A stretch of DNA of 49,795 nt from Candidatus Iainarchaeum sp. (GTDB lineage: Archaea > Micrarchaeota > Micrarchaeia > Anstonellales > Bilamarchaeaceae). Positions 11,767 to 16,024 of this stretch are shown here, piece after piece. The stretch is taken from contig JAQTME010000009.1 of assembly GCA_028714535.1 (NCBI GenBank), positions 1 to 49,795 of the forward strand. Reading direction: 5' to 3'. The notes beneath the pieces were generated by a model that had not been told where the DNA came from, did not search any database, and worked only from the letters and a program-made list of their open reading frames with translations. Numbering within the stretch: position 1 is the stretch's first letter; every line of letters starts with the position of its first letter. The position numbers and the translations under genes were made by a program.

Positions 11767-13350
11767 TTACTTCCTCAGGTCCATGACCTTTATCCCGCGG
11801 AACGCGTAGCCGAGGGCCAGCGCATCCGCGACCCTGTTCCCGTCTGCTTCAGTCGGGCCGCAGTAGACCATGGCGCCGTGGTGCGGGAATGGCGCTTTTT
11901 CCTCCTGCGTCACGTCTCCGTGTATGGCCTGCATGACGTCTTCCTGCTTGCGGGTCAGCAGGAACCCGTTGTTGCCGAACGATTCGGCAATCGGGGCCAG
12001 CGACTGCGACACGAAGATGTACGCGGTCAGGCCGCCTTCGGCGTTGGGCGCGATTCTCGTGGTCAGGATGGAGCCTTCCTTTACTGTTGCCGCCCTGCAG
12101 CCTATGGAGTCGCCGCACGGGAGGAATTTCTCCATTATCACCTGCTTGATTATCTTCCCCTCGTTCGTCAGGTCGGCAGGCCAGACGCCACAGTGGAATG
12201 GCAGGCTCAGGTTCGACAATACCTCGCCCACGCCCATTTCATACGCAGAGGCGATTTTGTTCAATGCAGGGCCGATTTTTTGGTCCTTCAGGTATGCTTC
12301 GACTTTGGCCGGCGAAAACACGCAGTTGGTGATGTCCGCCAGGCCCGCGGCGCTGTTAGCTGCTGCGGAAGCCGCAAGCATGGACAACGCGCCGTACACG
12401 TCGGTTTCGCACGCGAATGGTATGCGCACCTGGCTCATCGCAGCCATGGCAGCGCAGGCGCAGACTTTCGCCTTTTGCTGCAGGTAGGTCCAGCAGTCAA
12501 CGCCTGCGGCGTGAAGGTTTTCCGCTTTCGCCCAGACTCTCATTTGGGCCAGCAGCTTGGCCATGCGCGTCAGTTTTTCAGCCGGCACTCCGCTGCAGTC
12601 GGACTGCGTCTTCAGCGTCGTGAGGGCTTCCATCACCAGAGTGGTATTTTCCCTTCTCTTGAAGGCGATTTCTACGAACCTGCCGAGGTTTTCCTGTGCG
12701 AGGTCGATGTCCATCCCTGCAAGGGGTTCCCTGTTTTGCATGGACAGCTGGTAGAAGTCGCGCGTGTCAGAGCCGAGCATGCCAATTCGCGCGCCGGTCA
12801 TCGAGTGGTACGTGTCGGTCGCGGCTAGGAACTTTTCCACGTTGGCTGTGAATTCAGGGCTTTCGGGATAGCACACCTTCGGCCTCGCCATGACAAAATT
12901 GAATTTTTTGGTCTGCGCATGCGAAGTTGCAAGGTACATTCCGTTGCCAGTGTCCACCCTCATGTCCGTGAGGTTCTGGAGGTCATCGGGCAGCCCCAGC
13001 ATGAGCATGGGAAGGCCCTTCATCGCTTTTCCGGCAATCGAAAACGCAGTCAGGTCGCCGAAATTCGCGTAAAACGCTATCATGGCGTCAACCGGGTTTT
13101 GCTGCACCATGCGGGTGAATTTTGCCGCGTCTTCCTTGTTCATGCATGCGCCGCCTGACACCGTCGCATCAGGGGGCAGCATCAAAAACTCTACGCCAGC
13201 CTTTTTTCCTATGGCATCAAAGGCAGCCCTTACACGGCCAACATCGCCCGCTATCCTGCTAAAGTCCAACTTGCCAGGCACGCCAGTCGGCATGGCAAAA
13301 CAGTCTCGTATTACGACTTGCACTCCTATCCTGTTATTCGGCATTGCCAT
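11767..13350 (-). CDS. L-fucose/L-arabinose isomerase-family protein
   Basis: 527 aa with the FucI/AraA fold, members of which interconvert aldose and ketose sugars using Mn2+. Visible family features are an N-terminal Rossmann-like part (MIAFYANFGDLTA, MLMLGLPDD), the metal-ligand region PFACETDVYGALSML with its Glu and Asp, and the C-terminal LPFHCGVWP block found in fucose-isomerase-like proteins. It is somewhat shorter than E. coli FucI, so substrate is uncertain. ATG 13350 was chosen because GGAGGGA precedes it at proper spacing; an upstream extension in the same frame has no Shine-Dalgarno. It is divergent from a XylA-like gene with a 241-bp gap. A TATA-like TTTATTTTTAAA lies near 13440-13451. 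The pairing suggests a small sugar-processing module, but no kinase or transporter is adjacent. Confidence 0.8.
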   Translation of the reverse strand: MAMPNNRIGVQVVIRDCFAMPTGVPGKLDFSRIAGDVGRVRAAFDAIGKKAGVEFLMLPPDATVSGGACMNKEDAAKFTRMVQQNPVDAMIAFYANFGDLTAFSIAGKAMKGLPMLMLGLPDDLQNLTDMRVDTGNGMYLATSHAQTKKFNFVMARPKVCYPESPEFTANVEKFLAATDTYHSMTGARIGMLGSDTRDFYQLSMQNREPLAGMDIDLAQENLGRFVEIAFKRRENTTLVMEALTTLKTQSDCSGVPAEKLTRMAKLLAQMRVWAKAENLHAAGVDCWTYLQQKAKVCACAAMAAMSQVRIPFACETDVYGALSMLAASAAANSAAGLADITNCVFSPAKVEAYLKDQKIGPALNKIASAYEMGVGEVLSNLSLPFHCGVWPADLTNEGKIIKQVIMEKFLPCGDSIGCRAATVKEGSILTTRIAPNAEGGLTAYIFVSQSLAPIAESFGNNGFLLTRKQEDVMQAIHGDVTQEEKAPFPHHGAMVYCGPTEADGNRVADALALGYAFRGIKVMDLRK

Positions 13351-13546
13351 CAAATTCCCTCCAGGTTTTGTTTTTGTGCGGCAAAAACAGCTCCCGCCAG
13401 GGAATGTTGTCGCCACCACGTCCGTATTCCATGCCTAACTTTAAAAATAAATGGTTTTTTACCAAAAAGAGTGTTTCTGGCCGGTGACTGGGCGCCGGAG
13501 AGCATGTAAAACGGGGATTTTAACAGAAAAACGCTTCAAACCACAG

Positions 13547-13558: not shown

Positions 13559-13591
13559 GGTGGGGTGGTAAAATGCGGTTTAGGTGAATAT

Positions 13592-14764
13592 ATGGAAAAA
13601 CAACTGGTTTTACCACAAAGGTATCTGGACTTGAGGAAGGAGAGGCCGAGGAACGACGCACCATTTCCATTGGGCGGATGCGTATGGACCGTAAACGACG
13701 GCAAGACGCGGTTTTTCGGGGGCGGCAGGCCTGAGCTGACCACCGTCTCGCTCGCCCAGCAGATAGACATCATAACTGGGGTCAACAAGGCGCTGCTGGC
13801 CAAGTCCGACCTGCTCTCAAAAGCTGGCATAGTGCCCGCCCCCCTGGAAGGGGTGGAGATGCACTACCCGAACGAGATAAACGAGAAGAACTTCAGCCAG
13901 ACCGTAAAACAGCTGAAGGCGGGGAACATGGTGGCGTCCATGGTCACGGCCAACCTGTTCTTCACTTTCCCGAATGGCTCGTTCATGAGCACGAACCCAG
14001 AGGACAGGGAAAGGGCCATAAAATGGGCGAAGGCGGTGGTCGACATCGCATACCAGTTCGAAAGCGAGCTCGGCCACCTCCCCACGGACGTTTTCTGGCC
14101 CGGCGGCGAGGGCTCGCAGATGCACTTCGAGTTGGATTTCGTGAAAGCGCTCCACCTCTACGCTGCTGCCATGAACGAGGTCATGGAATACGAATATAAG
14201 AAGGGGGGGAGGATGCTCTTCGCAGGTGAGTCGAAGCCGAACGAGCCTAAAGACTGCATAATCCTGCCGACGAGCGCGGACTTCCTGGCGGTCATGCAGG
14301 GGCTGCTCGACCCGAAATTCCAGGCGAGGTTCGGGGTGAACCCGGAAACTGCGCACGAGATGCTGGCAAACATGAGCCCCCTGAACCCGGTGGCAGTCGG
14401 GCTCACACTCGGCAAGCTGTTCCACTACCACGCCAACTGGCAGAAGGGGCTGAAGTGGGACCAGGACTACGGCGTGCCCATCAACCTGGCGATGCTCGAG
14501 GTTTTCCACCACATGAAGGAATACGGCTTCAAGGGATTCATAGGCCTTGACATGCAGGCCAGGCCCGAGAGCAAGCAGGTCGGCAAGGTCATGGAGTACT
14601 CGGTCATGAACATCAGGTTCCTGGAGGCCCTCGAGAAGAAGGTCGACTGGGGGCACATCGATGACCTGAGGAAGCAAGGCACGCCGGAAATGGCAGAGCA
14701 GTACGTGACCATGTGCATGATACAGCTGATGCCACAGGGCGTGGACGCGAAACTCTTCGCCTGA
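13592..14764 (+). CDS. Xylose-isomerase-like TIM barrel protein
   Basis: 390 aa resembling XylA, which isomerises xylose/glucose with two divalent metals. Aligned landmarks are FWPGGEGSQMHFELDF, GESKPNEPKD (compare EPKPNEP around the metal-binding Glu), NPETAHEMLANMSP (compare the N-E-x-NHATL region) and HYHANWQKGLKWDQDYG (compare the DxNRGD...WDTD metal site). The metal site seems present, but sequence divergence makes the natural sugar uncertain. Start: ATG 13592 with GGTGA five bases upstream; an in-frame GTG at 13565 has no Shine-Dalgarno. It is divergent from the FucI-like gene and ends before a strong GC hairpin. A rhamnose- or lyxose-type isomerase is another possibility. Confidence 0.75.
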   Translation: MEKQLVLPQRYLDLRKERPRNDAPFPLGGCVWTVNDGKTRFFGGGRPELTTVSLAQQIDIITGVNKALLAKSDLLSKAGIVPAPLEGVEMHYPNEINEKNFSQTVKQLKAGNMVASMVTANLFFTFPNGSFMSTNPEDRERAIKWAKAVVDIAYQFESELGHLPTDVFWPGGEGSQMHFELDFVKALHLYAAAMNEVMEYEYKKGGRMLFAGESKPNEPKDCIILPTSADFLAVMQGLLDPKFQARFGVNPETAHEMLANMSPLNPVAVGLTLGKLFHYHANWQKGLKWDQDYGVPINLAMLEVFHHMKEYGFKGFIGLDMQARPESKQVGKVMEYSVMNIRFLEALEKKVDWGHIDDLRKQGTPEMAEQYVTMCMIQLMPQGVDAKLFA

Positions 14765-14777
14765 TTTTTTTATTTTC

Positions 14778-14795
14778 GGCGGGGTTTTCCCCGCC
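14778..14795 (+). terminator. GC-rich terminator hairpin after the XylA-like gene
   Basis: Perfect 7-bp stem GGCGGGG/CCCCGCC with a TTTT loop, 14 bp after the stop, flanked upstream by a T-rich run. Confidence 0.6.
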
Positions 14796-14817
14796 ATCCC
14801 TATTTTTAGGTTAAGAG

Positions 14818-14881
14818 TCAGAACTCAAGATCTCAATCATCGGAAATTTGCGTTTCCTCATAGGTATTGCGTTCTCATCAT
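14818..14881 (-). ncRNA. Candidate C/D box sRNA, minus strand
   Basis: On the minus strand a perfect C box ATGATGA (14881-14875) and a D box CTGA (14821-14818) bracket 64 nt, close to archaeal C/D sRNA size. Inside are C'-like CCGATGA (14843-14837) and a poor D' (ATGA at 14861-14858). The spacer between C and D' is 12 nt. The TATA element at 14904-14912 lies about 27 bp before the C box. It would guide 2'-O-methylation of rRNA or tRNA; targets were not identified. It is weaker than its plus-strand partner because of the D' box. Confidence 0.4.
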
Positions 14882-14895
14882 TGGAAGGATAGTGC

Positions 14896-14915
14896 GTGCT
14901 ATCAATTATAAGCAC
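14896..14915. promoter_or_regulatory. Bidirectional TATA element inside an inverted repeat
   Basis: ATCAATTATA is framed by GTGCT (14896-14900) and AGCAC (14911-14915). AATTATAA reads as TATA on both strands. Its centre is about 29 bp before the plus-strand C box and 27 bp before the minus-strand C box, so one element could drive both RNA candidates. Confidence 0.5.
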
Positions 14916-14936
14916 TCGTCAAGAGAAAACTGCGGG

Positions 14937-14994
14937 ATGATGAGTGTTCGACAGACCGAGAGAAATCGATGAGGACAACTATCACTCTGACTGA
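14937..14994 (+). ncRNA. Candidate C/D box sRNA, plus strand
   Basis: C box ATGATGA (14937-14943) is perfect. D' is CCGA (14956-14959, one mismatch), C' is TCGATGA (14966-14972), and D is CTGA (14987-14990), with a second CTGA directly after it. Guide spacers are 12 nt (C to D') and 14 nt (C' to D), and the D'-C' spacer is 6 nt, all in the normal archaeal range. A TATA element lies about 29 bp upstream. The expected function is guiding ribose methylation with L7Ae, Nop5 and fibrillarin. Target sites are not identified. Confidence 0.6.
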
Positions 14995-15029
14995 AATTTT
15001 CATCCGGCTTTACTTCGGGTAAAATTTCA
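14992..15029 (+). terminator. Long hairpin downstream of the sRNA candidate
   Basis: Nine-bp stem TGAAATTTT/AAAATTTCA continues after a single bulged C into ATCCG/CGGGT (one T-G pair), closing a nine-base loop. It overlaps the second D-box-like CTGA and lies 45 bp before the TFB stop codon on the opposite strand. It may stop both transcripts or be part of a longer RNA. Confidence 0.45.
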
Positions 15030-15073
15030 TTAAACTTCAGGAGAAAAAAGAGGATAGAAATAAAGAAAAGAAA

Positions 15074-15988
15074 TCAGAGGTTCACTTTCAGGCCCAGCTC
15101 CTTCTTGAGCTCGCGGTAGCGGTTCCTGATGGTGACTTCCGTGACACCGGCCACGTCCGCGACCTCCTTCTGCGTCTTCTTCTCGCCGTGCATGGCGCTG
15201 GTTATGTAGAGCGCCGCTGCGGCCACGCCTGTCGGCCCGCGGCCCGATATGAGGCCCTTGCGGAGCGCCTTCCTGATGAGCTTTATGGCCTCCTCCTGGA
15301 CCTCGCCGCCCAGCTTCAGCGCCGTCGCGAACTTCGGCACGTATTGCGCCGGGTCTGTGAGCGGCACGTCGATCTGCAGCTCGGATTTCAGGAAGCGGTA
15401 TGCGCGGCCTATCTCCTTCTTCTCTATGCCCGACGCACGCGATATCTCGTCAAGCGTCCTCGGTATGCCCTGTATGCGGCAGATGCCATAGACGACTGCT
15501 GCCACTACGCTCTCTATCAATCGCCCGCGTATGAGCTCCTCCTTGACCGCGCGCCTGTAGAGCAGGGCTGCGCTCTCCTTGATGTTCTCGGGAAGGCCGA
15601 GGGACGACGCGACACGGTCCAGCTCGGCCAGCGCGATGACCAGGTTCCGCTCCATGGAGGTGGCGATGGAAACCCTCTTGTGCCATTTCCTCATGCGGTA
15701 GAGCTGTGCCTGCTTCTTCGGGCTTATCTTGCCGCCGCGGATGTCCCTGTTGTACTGGTCTATCTCGGTGACGAGGCCCTTGTTCGGCCTCATGTACTTT
15801 ATCGGGGCGCCTCCGCGCGCCTTCTTCTCCTTCTGCTCCGCGTCGAACGCGCGCCACTCCGGGCCGAGGTCCTGTATGTTCTCTGCGACGATGAGGCCGC
15901 AGTTGGCGCACAGGAGCTCGCCCTTCTCGTAATCTCTTATAAGCCTTTTGCTCTTGCATTCTGGACATTTTGTAGCCGTAGATTCCAT
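15074..15988 (-). CDS. tfb: Transcription initiation factor B (TFB)
   Basis: 304 aa; recruits RNA polymerase to TBP-bound promoters and contacts the BRE. The N-terminal zinc ribbon is CPEC (about residues 8-11) and CANC (about 28-31). The B-reader/linker has LGPEWRAFDAEQ, and two cyclin-like repeats follow (about 105-200 and 205-300), the second ending in TEVTIRNRYRELKKELGL. Length is standard. ATG 15988 was chosen over an upstream in-frame codon because GAGGGA precedes it and the zinc ribbon then starts close to the N-terminus. The TATA box is at 16054-16061. A palindrome is centred at the predicted transcription start. The 5' leader is about 42 nt. Confidence 0.96.
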   Translation of the reverse strand: MESTATKCPECKSKRLIRDYEKGELLCANCGLIVAENIQDLGPEWRAFDAEQKEKKARGGAPIKYMRPNKGLVTEIDQYNRDIRGGKISPKKQAQLYRMRKWHKRVSIATSMERNLVIALAELDRVASSLGLPENIKESAALLYRRAVKEELIRGRLIESVVAAVVYGICRIQGIPRTLDEISRASGIEKKEIGRAYRFLKSELQIDVPLTDPAQYVPKFATALKLGGEVQEEAIKLIRKALRKGLISGRGPTGVAAAALYITSAMHGEKKTQKEVADVAGVTEVTIRNRYRELKKELGLKVNL

Positions 15989-16024
15989 CAAAATCCCTCT
16001 CAAAAGTTGTAGCAAGTTTTTAAA

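Follow-up and report, generated by a model that had tools for sequence, protein, structure and literature searches.

Two putative dual-guide C/D box sRNA genes arranged head to head around one TATA-like box in a member of the Micrarchaeota

The window considered here, that is, the whole 49.8-kb stretch of DNA that was analysed, contains an intergenic region between a xylose-isomerase-like gene and tfb, the gene for TFB, both of which are directed inwards (Table 1). Two candidate C/D box sRNA genes, RNA A on the plus strand and RNA B on the minus strand, lie in this region on either side of a TATA-like box. The first-pass annotation had placed perfect ATGATGA C boxes on both strands, each followed by a CTGA D box at C/D sRNA distance; both C boxes were indeed found, with C-to-D spans of 54 nt and 64 nt, exactly as claimed. 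It had also ascribed C'/D' boxes and guide spacers of suitable length to the plus-strand candidate, which holds, and the minus-strand candidate, too, carries C'/D' boxes and two guides. As to the surroundings, no tRNA calls and no Rfam families were obtained in the 49.8-kb window, and an ORF of 550 aa (11767-13419, minus strand) is without a Pfam match. In particular, RNA A and RNA B are without a match in Rfam at the gathering score, a search that we judge uninformative for lineage-specific guides.

Table 1. Features of the sRNA locus (positions in the window; sequences are given in the sense of the respective RNA)
Feature	Position	Strand	Basis or remark
Xylose-isomerase-like gene	13565-14764	+	Pfam AP_endonuc_2
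Intergenic region, 309 bp	14765-15073		between xylose-isomerase-like gene and tfb
tfb (TFB gene)	15074-16015	-	nearest relatives in Micrarchaeota
RNA B, dual-guide C/D box sRNA, C to D, 64 nt	14818-14881	-	descriptor match and homologs
RNA B box C, ATGATGA	14875-14881	-	TGATGA invariant in alignment A1
RNA B D' guide, GAACGCAATACCT	14862-14874	-	16S AGGTATTGC (h34), predicted Am1050 (E. coli numbering)
RNA B box D', ATGA, degenerate	14858-14861	-	CTGA, CCGA and other forms in relatives (alignment A1)
RNA B D'-C' loop, GGAAACGCAAATTTCCG, 17 nt, 5-bp stem	14841-14857	-	stem conserved, compensatory changes
RNA B box C', ATGATTG	14834-14840	-	sequence and alignment A1
RNA B D guide, AGATCTTGAGTT	14822-14833	-	tRNA-Leu(CAA) C34 (predicted); conserved through phylum
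RNA B box D, CTGA	14818-14821	-	invariant in alignment A1
TATA-like box, AATTATAA, palindromic core TTATAA 14906-14911	14904-14911		A/T peak upstream of box C
GTGCT / AGCAC frame of TATA-like box	14896-14900 / 14911-14915
RNA A, dual-guide C/D box sRNA, C to D, 54 nt	14937-14990	+	descriptor match and homologs
RNA A box C, ATGATGA	14937-14943	+	TGATGA invariant in alignment A2
RNA A D' guide, GTGTTCGACAGA	14944-14955	+	23S 845-855, predicted Um848 (~E. coli U789)
RNA A box D', CCGA	14956-14959	+	CTGA/CCGA among relatives (alignment A2)
RNA A D'-C' loop, GAGAAATCG, 9 nt	14960-14968	+	conserved stem in relatives
RNA A box C', ATGAGGA	14969-14975	+	sequence and alignment A2
RNA A D guide, CAACTATCACT	14976-14986	+	23S 835-843, predicted Am839 (~E. 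coli A780)
RNA A box D, CTGA	14987-14990	+	invariant in alignment A2

Both RNAs combine the hallmarks of archaeal C/D box sRNAs, namely, terminal boxes (RTGATGA for C, CTGA for D) and internal C'/D' boxes with guides of 10-13 nt. A four-box descriptor (C, 10-13 nt, D', 3-25 nt, C', 9-13 nt, D) matched RNA A and RNA B and nothing else in the 49.8 kb. By the chance rates, which were drawn from the window and the loci, random sequence with matched dinucleotide content would yield 0.015 matches per window; for the 309-nt intergenic region, the probability of at least one chance match is 3.5e-4, and two matches occurred in 0 of 20,000 trials. For RNA B, an alternative parse, with ATGAGGA as box C and AAACGCAAATTTC as inner guide, was rejected because the AAACGCAAATTTC stretch is replaced by unrelated hairpins in relatives and GCAATACC is invariant in alignment A1. 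Directly 3' of RNA A (14992-15038) lies a separate element, an inverted repeat TGAAATTTT...AAAATTTCA followed by TTAAACTTC. In relatives, related copies immediately precede tRNA genes or the start of a protein gene (L005, L024, L029), and L011 has a further copy; it may be a promoter leader, a hairpin or a mobile repeat, and matches to it were kept apart from the sRNA homologs.

In a DNA search of 40 relatives, the RNA A and RNA B stretches were matched separately. Homology models built from the homologs of RNA A (alignment A2) and RNA B (alignment A1) were then run on 301 genomes of the phylum, the scores of the rows used in building not being independent. RNA A was detected in 25 of these genomes at E <= 0.01, and of its 17 strong matches (E <= 1e-8), 16 are in congeners (of 17 in the genus) and one in a non-congener of the family. 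RNA B was detected in 242 of the 301, with approximately three expected by chance; in most of the distant genomes the C'-guide-D half alone matches. The conservation in relatives that the first-pass annotation proposed to look for is thus apparent: nearly all congeners have both sRNAs, with invariant boxes and near-invariant guides, mostly less than 1.3 kb apart (2 kb in one genome) and with tfb nearby. The arrangement, however, differs among the congeners that share the two genes: a tight divergent pair is seen in the window genome and four others (G000, G006, G008, G012, G013), a tandem pair in six (G003, G004, G007, G010, G015, G022), and in the remaining ones the genes are either far apart (divergent or tandem) or convergent. 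Divergent and tandem arrangements are interleaved in the tfb tree. In other parts of the phylum, RNA B homologs (L306, L307, L313, L316, L317, L320, L321) possess other D' guides with no target assigned; examples are AACGAGGTATT and, in f7, the CACTAGAT type. Since the sequence of the D' guide differs in other families, the two halves of RNA B evolve as modules.

The window genome encodes fibrillarin (E 4.9e-80) and Nop5 (E 9.3e-57). When the guides were examined for complementarity to rRNA and tRNA, at least nine pairs, the number below which the first-pass annotation would count as refuted, were found for each, so that it stands on this point: 11 Watson-Crick pairs for the D' guide and nine pairs including one G-U for the D guide of RNA A, and 11 Watson-Crick pairs plus one G-U for the D guide and 9-11 pairs for the D' guide of RNA B. 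The D guide of RNA B pairs with the anticodon region of spliced tRNA-Leu(CAA) such that C34 occupies the N+5 position, and 1 of 300 shuffled guides did as well. The anticodon loop reads CTCAAG in 29 of 40 genomes. An intron interrupts the tRNA gene at 37/38 (splicing being deduced from the sequence), and the longest run scores 8.5 on the unspliced and 11.5 on the spliced form. In many of the 37/38 introns of tRNA-Leu(CAA) (L245-L273), the first letters are ATC, as in exon 2, so that the pairing would persist in the precursor; others, including that of the window genome, begin with AGGC or GGGC. Judging by the sequences, tRNA-Leu(UAA) may be a further partner of the D guide if two G-U pairs are allowed, one of them at the target nucleotide.

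A guide for position 34 of tRNA-Leu(CAA) is known in Pyrococcus (PMC7994747), and in P. furiosus this position was predicted to be methylated, but is among the predicted sites for which one tRNA sequencing study may have brought no confirmation (PMC7668247). The tRNA and the nucleotide are the same as those predicted for RNA B (PMC7994747, PMC7668247); unlike the Pyrococcus sRNA, RNA B in the window genome requires the spliced tRNA for its full pairing. Whereas in Pyrobaculum tRNA guides are reportedly combined with a guide that has no target (PMC7994747), the second guide of RNA B has one, in 16S rRNA. This D' guide matches AGGTATTGC(AT) in helix 34, with the equivalent of E. coli A1050 at N+5. 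For the guide of the window genome, nine pairs are found with the 16S rRNA of relatives, and in congeners 9-11 pairs are found; in the assembly of the window genome (G000) the 16S rRNA gene was not found, and the 23S gene is complete. The 16S target GGTATTGC is present in every congener whose 16S was read. In genus g1, it is accompanied by the guide GCAATAC, and in family f21 the 16S rRNA has GGTAGTGC and the guide is GCACTAC, which, by comparison of the sequences, is a two-sided change that would preserve the predicted pairing. If a difference in register of one nt between the two groups is real, the methylated position in f21 would be 1051 rather than 1050. A target in 23S rRNA was rejected for this guide in favour of 16S, since it comprises 7 pairs and 262 of 300 shuffles were as good.

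In many relatives (L190, L192, L195, L198, L200, L203, L206, L225, L320 and others; none in the window), one to three hairpins follow RNA B, their 3' arm copying the D guide with the D box (ATCTTGAGTTCTGA) and their 5' arm being the complement of the 3' arm and resembling the anticodon loop of tRNA-Leu(CAA); extra guide copies occur in 14 of 65 clusters.

For RNA A, the D' guide targets the helix 35 region of 23S rRNA, with U848 at N+5, which aligns with U789 of the E. coli strain used; 4 of 300 shuffled guides were as good. The end of this duplex shows compensatory changes, with GAG in the guide and CTC in the target in G015, AAG/CTT in G016 and GTG/CAC in the window. Across ten related genomes, the guides score 10.8 on their own 23S rRNA versus 10.26 on swapped ones (permutation p = 0.022), a modest test, given that the genomes are related and the independent events few. 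In G017, which belongs to the next genus, the 23S target is changed and RNA A is undetected. Helices 35/35a of 23S rRNA are a known hotspot of archaeal methylation (PMC4644070), and RNA A shares this region with the guides described there; it differs in that its target CCTGTCGAAC is lineage-specific and RNA A itself is almost confined to the genus.

The part of the C/D box structure that sets this family apart is the stretch between D' and C'. In family f1, it varies from 9 to 73 nt and is longer still in some members, and its two ends can pair with each other in a single exact register, one nt ahead of C'. The stems comprise 74 pairs in 15 loops for RNA B (shuffled: mean 9.6, maximum 26) and 50 pairs in 15 loops for RNA A (mean 9.7, maximum 25), and they are formed by many different sequences among relatives. 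By geometry, this suggests that the K-loop becomes a K-turn with an outer stem. The archaeal dual-guide sRNAs of the sR families, as described in Pyrococcus, Sulfolobus, Pyrobaculum and Nanoarchaeum, have the C, D', C' and D boxes in common with RNA A and RNA B, as well as guides of 10-13 nt, rRNA and tRNA targets, fibrillarin and Nop5 genes, and clustering of genes; here, in contrast to them, the K-loop is replaced by a covarying stem and tolerates inserts of ~70 nt or more, whereas the f21 relatives retain D'-C' loops of 8-10 nt. This stem-extended C'/D' site is an unusual, lineage-specific feature and the aspect that merits specialist attention. We tentatively suggest that the C'/D' side of C/D sRNAs in this family is a complete stem-extended K-turn that tolerates large and evolving hairpin inserts at its outer end, and that the hairpins downstream of RNA B could sequester or buffer its guide, an idea less likely to be right than wrong; if true, this type of C/D guide would differ in structure from the known ones and might be regulated. 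Palindromes of the pattern AAACTTTTT...AAAAAGTTT occur both in sRNA D'-C' loops (L204, L205, L206, L209) and in a tRNA-Gly intron (L133), with 62 matches across 1.45 Mb of loci, a count that includes overlapping matches and overlapping loci, and are, perhaps, a small mobile hairpin element.

Could the motifs have arisen by chance as k-turn-like sequences, or could they belong to antisense RNAs that regulate tfb, and not to methylation guides? The proximity of tfb in most congeners is compatible with the latter, but the descriptor statistics, the exact conservation of the boxes and the covariation with both 16S and 23S rRNA have already largely refuted such readings, and we consider them highly improbable. 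Taken together with the homologs, the constant position of the TATA-like box and the presence of fibrillarin and Nop5, these data support the claim of two C/D box sRNAs in the first-pass annotation: by sequence criteria, RNA A and RNA B appear to be genuine C/D box sRNA genes (probability about 0.95), and their function as methylation guides is very likely as well. The weakest assignment is the D guide of RNA A, which on its own is no better than chance (96 of 300 shuffled guides as good). Instead of guiding methylation, it might serve as an accessory arm whose pairing with the adjoining stretch of 23S rRNA anchors the D' guide: the two targets are one nt apart, and its ATCAC/GTGAT core is kept in most congeners while the distance to box D varies, a drift of register under which a single fixed methylated nucleotide would not be maintained. 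On the other hand, in the window genome the register obeys the N+5 rule at A839, and nearby targets of dual guides are the archaeal norm (PMC4644070). Accordingly weighed, the accessory role is a serious alternative to which we give somewhat less than even odds, and methylation of A839 (~E. coli 780) is the probable function.

The position of the TATA-like box bears on how the two genes would be transcribed. A symmetrical element framed by GTGCT/AGCAC, with the C boxes 27-29 bp from its centre, had been proposed; the distances, measured from the TTATAA core, are 28.5 nt (plus strand) and 27.5 nt (minus strand), and the element is present, but in relatives it is the A/T box that is conserved and generally not the frame. 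Upstream of RNA A, the A/T content peaks at 91% at -32..-27 (16 genomes), and upstream of RNA B it peaks at 91% at -30..-25 (33 genomes), compared with ~63-65% overall; nearly all homologs have the box 25-32 nt upstream of box C (e.g., CTTTTAA, TTTATA, CTTTTTAT). In Nanoarchaeum, TTTAAA precedes the starts of tRNA and CRISPR transcripts by 26-27 nt (PMC3491384), and with this spacing the RNA A and RNA B transcripts would begin with box C or shortly upstream of it. In the five tight divergent genomes, the C boxes are separated by 55-62 nt, with a single clear central TTATAA or TTAAAA between them, 23-29 nt from each. Thus, the part of the earlier proposal by which one TATA box serves both genes is well supported in these five genomes, and we regard a central box common to both sRNA genes as likely from its placement, one box working both ways probably being the simplest reading. 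The other part, matched production of the two guides, is unproven and not conserved, and was rejected as a conserved function because the same two genes are tandem, distant or convergent in other congeners.

These same arrangements indicate that the sRNA genes are independent of each other and, together with the observation that most C/D sRNA genes in six model archaea lack a promoter of their own and ride on neighbours (PMC7994747), leave some room for real sRNAs that have separate promoters or are cut from a longer transcript, the central box acting in one direction. This we consider unlikely. In the tandem genomes, each sRNA gene has its own copy of the box at an unchanged distance, in the divergent ones the only clear A/T box is the one midway, and the neighbouring protein genes point at the pair, so that transcription from them could reach it only by read-through. 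Bidirectional prokaryotic promoters (PMC12825309, PMC10268837) likewise have one pseudo-symmetrical core with outward transcription; what is found here, by comparison, is an archaeal TATA-like box between two putative guide-RNA genes, recognised by sequence.

The preferred scenario, then, is that of two independent dual-guide sRNA genes that share one symmetrical TATA-like box and are transcribed away from it, each transcript being expected to start within a few nt of its C box. Bound by L7Ae, Nop5 and fibrillarin, either RNA would direct 2'-O-methylation to the target nucleotides that face the fifth guide position upstream of boxes D and D': RNA A to U848 (~E. coli 789) and, probably, A839 in the helix 35 region of 23S rRNA, RNA B to C34 of mature tRNA-Leu(CAA) and the 16S equivalent of E. 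coli A1050. Transcription, RNP assembly, methylation and the simultaneous use of the box in both directions are all steps that we infer.

This kind of RNA is well known, and RNA A and RNA B are new examples of it; a literature search for C/D box sRNAs of Micrarchaeota found no paper. They point to specific methylation sites that can be tested in a lineage without cultured members. The covarying D'-C' stem raises the question whether archaeal L7Ae/Nop5 particles are functional at a stem-extended, insert-bearing C'/D' site, and the conserved guide for C34 of tRNA-Leu(CAA) suggests that methylation of the wobble base by C/D RNPs is retained even in very small genomes.
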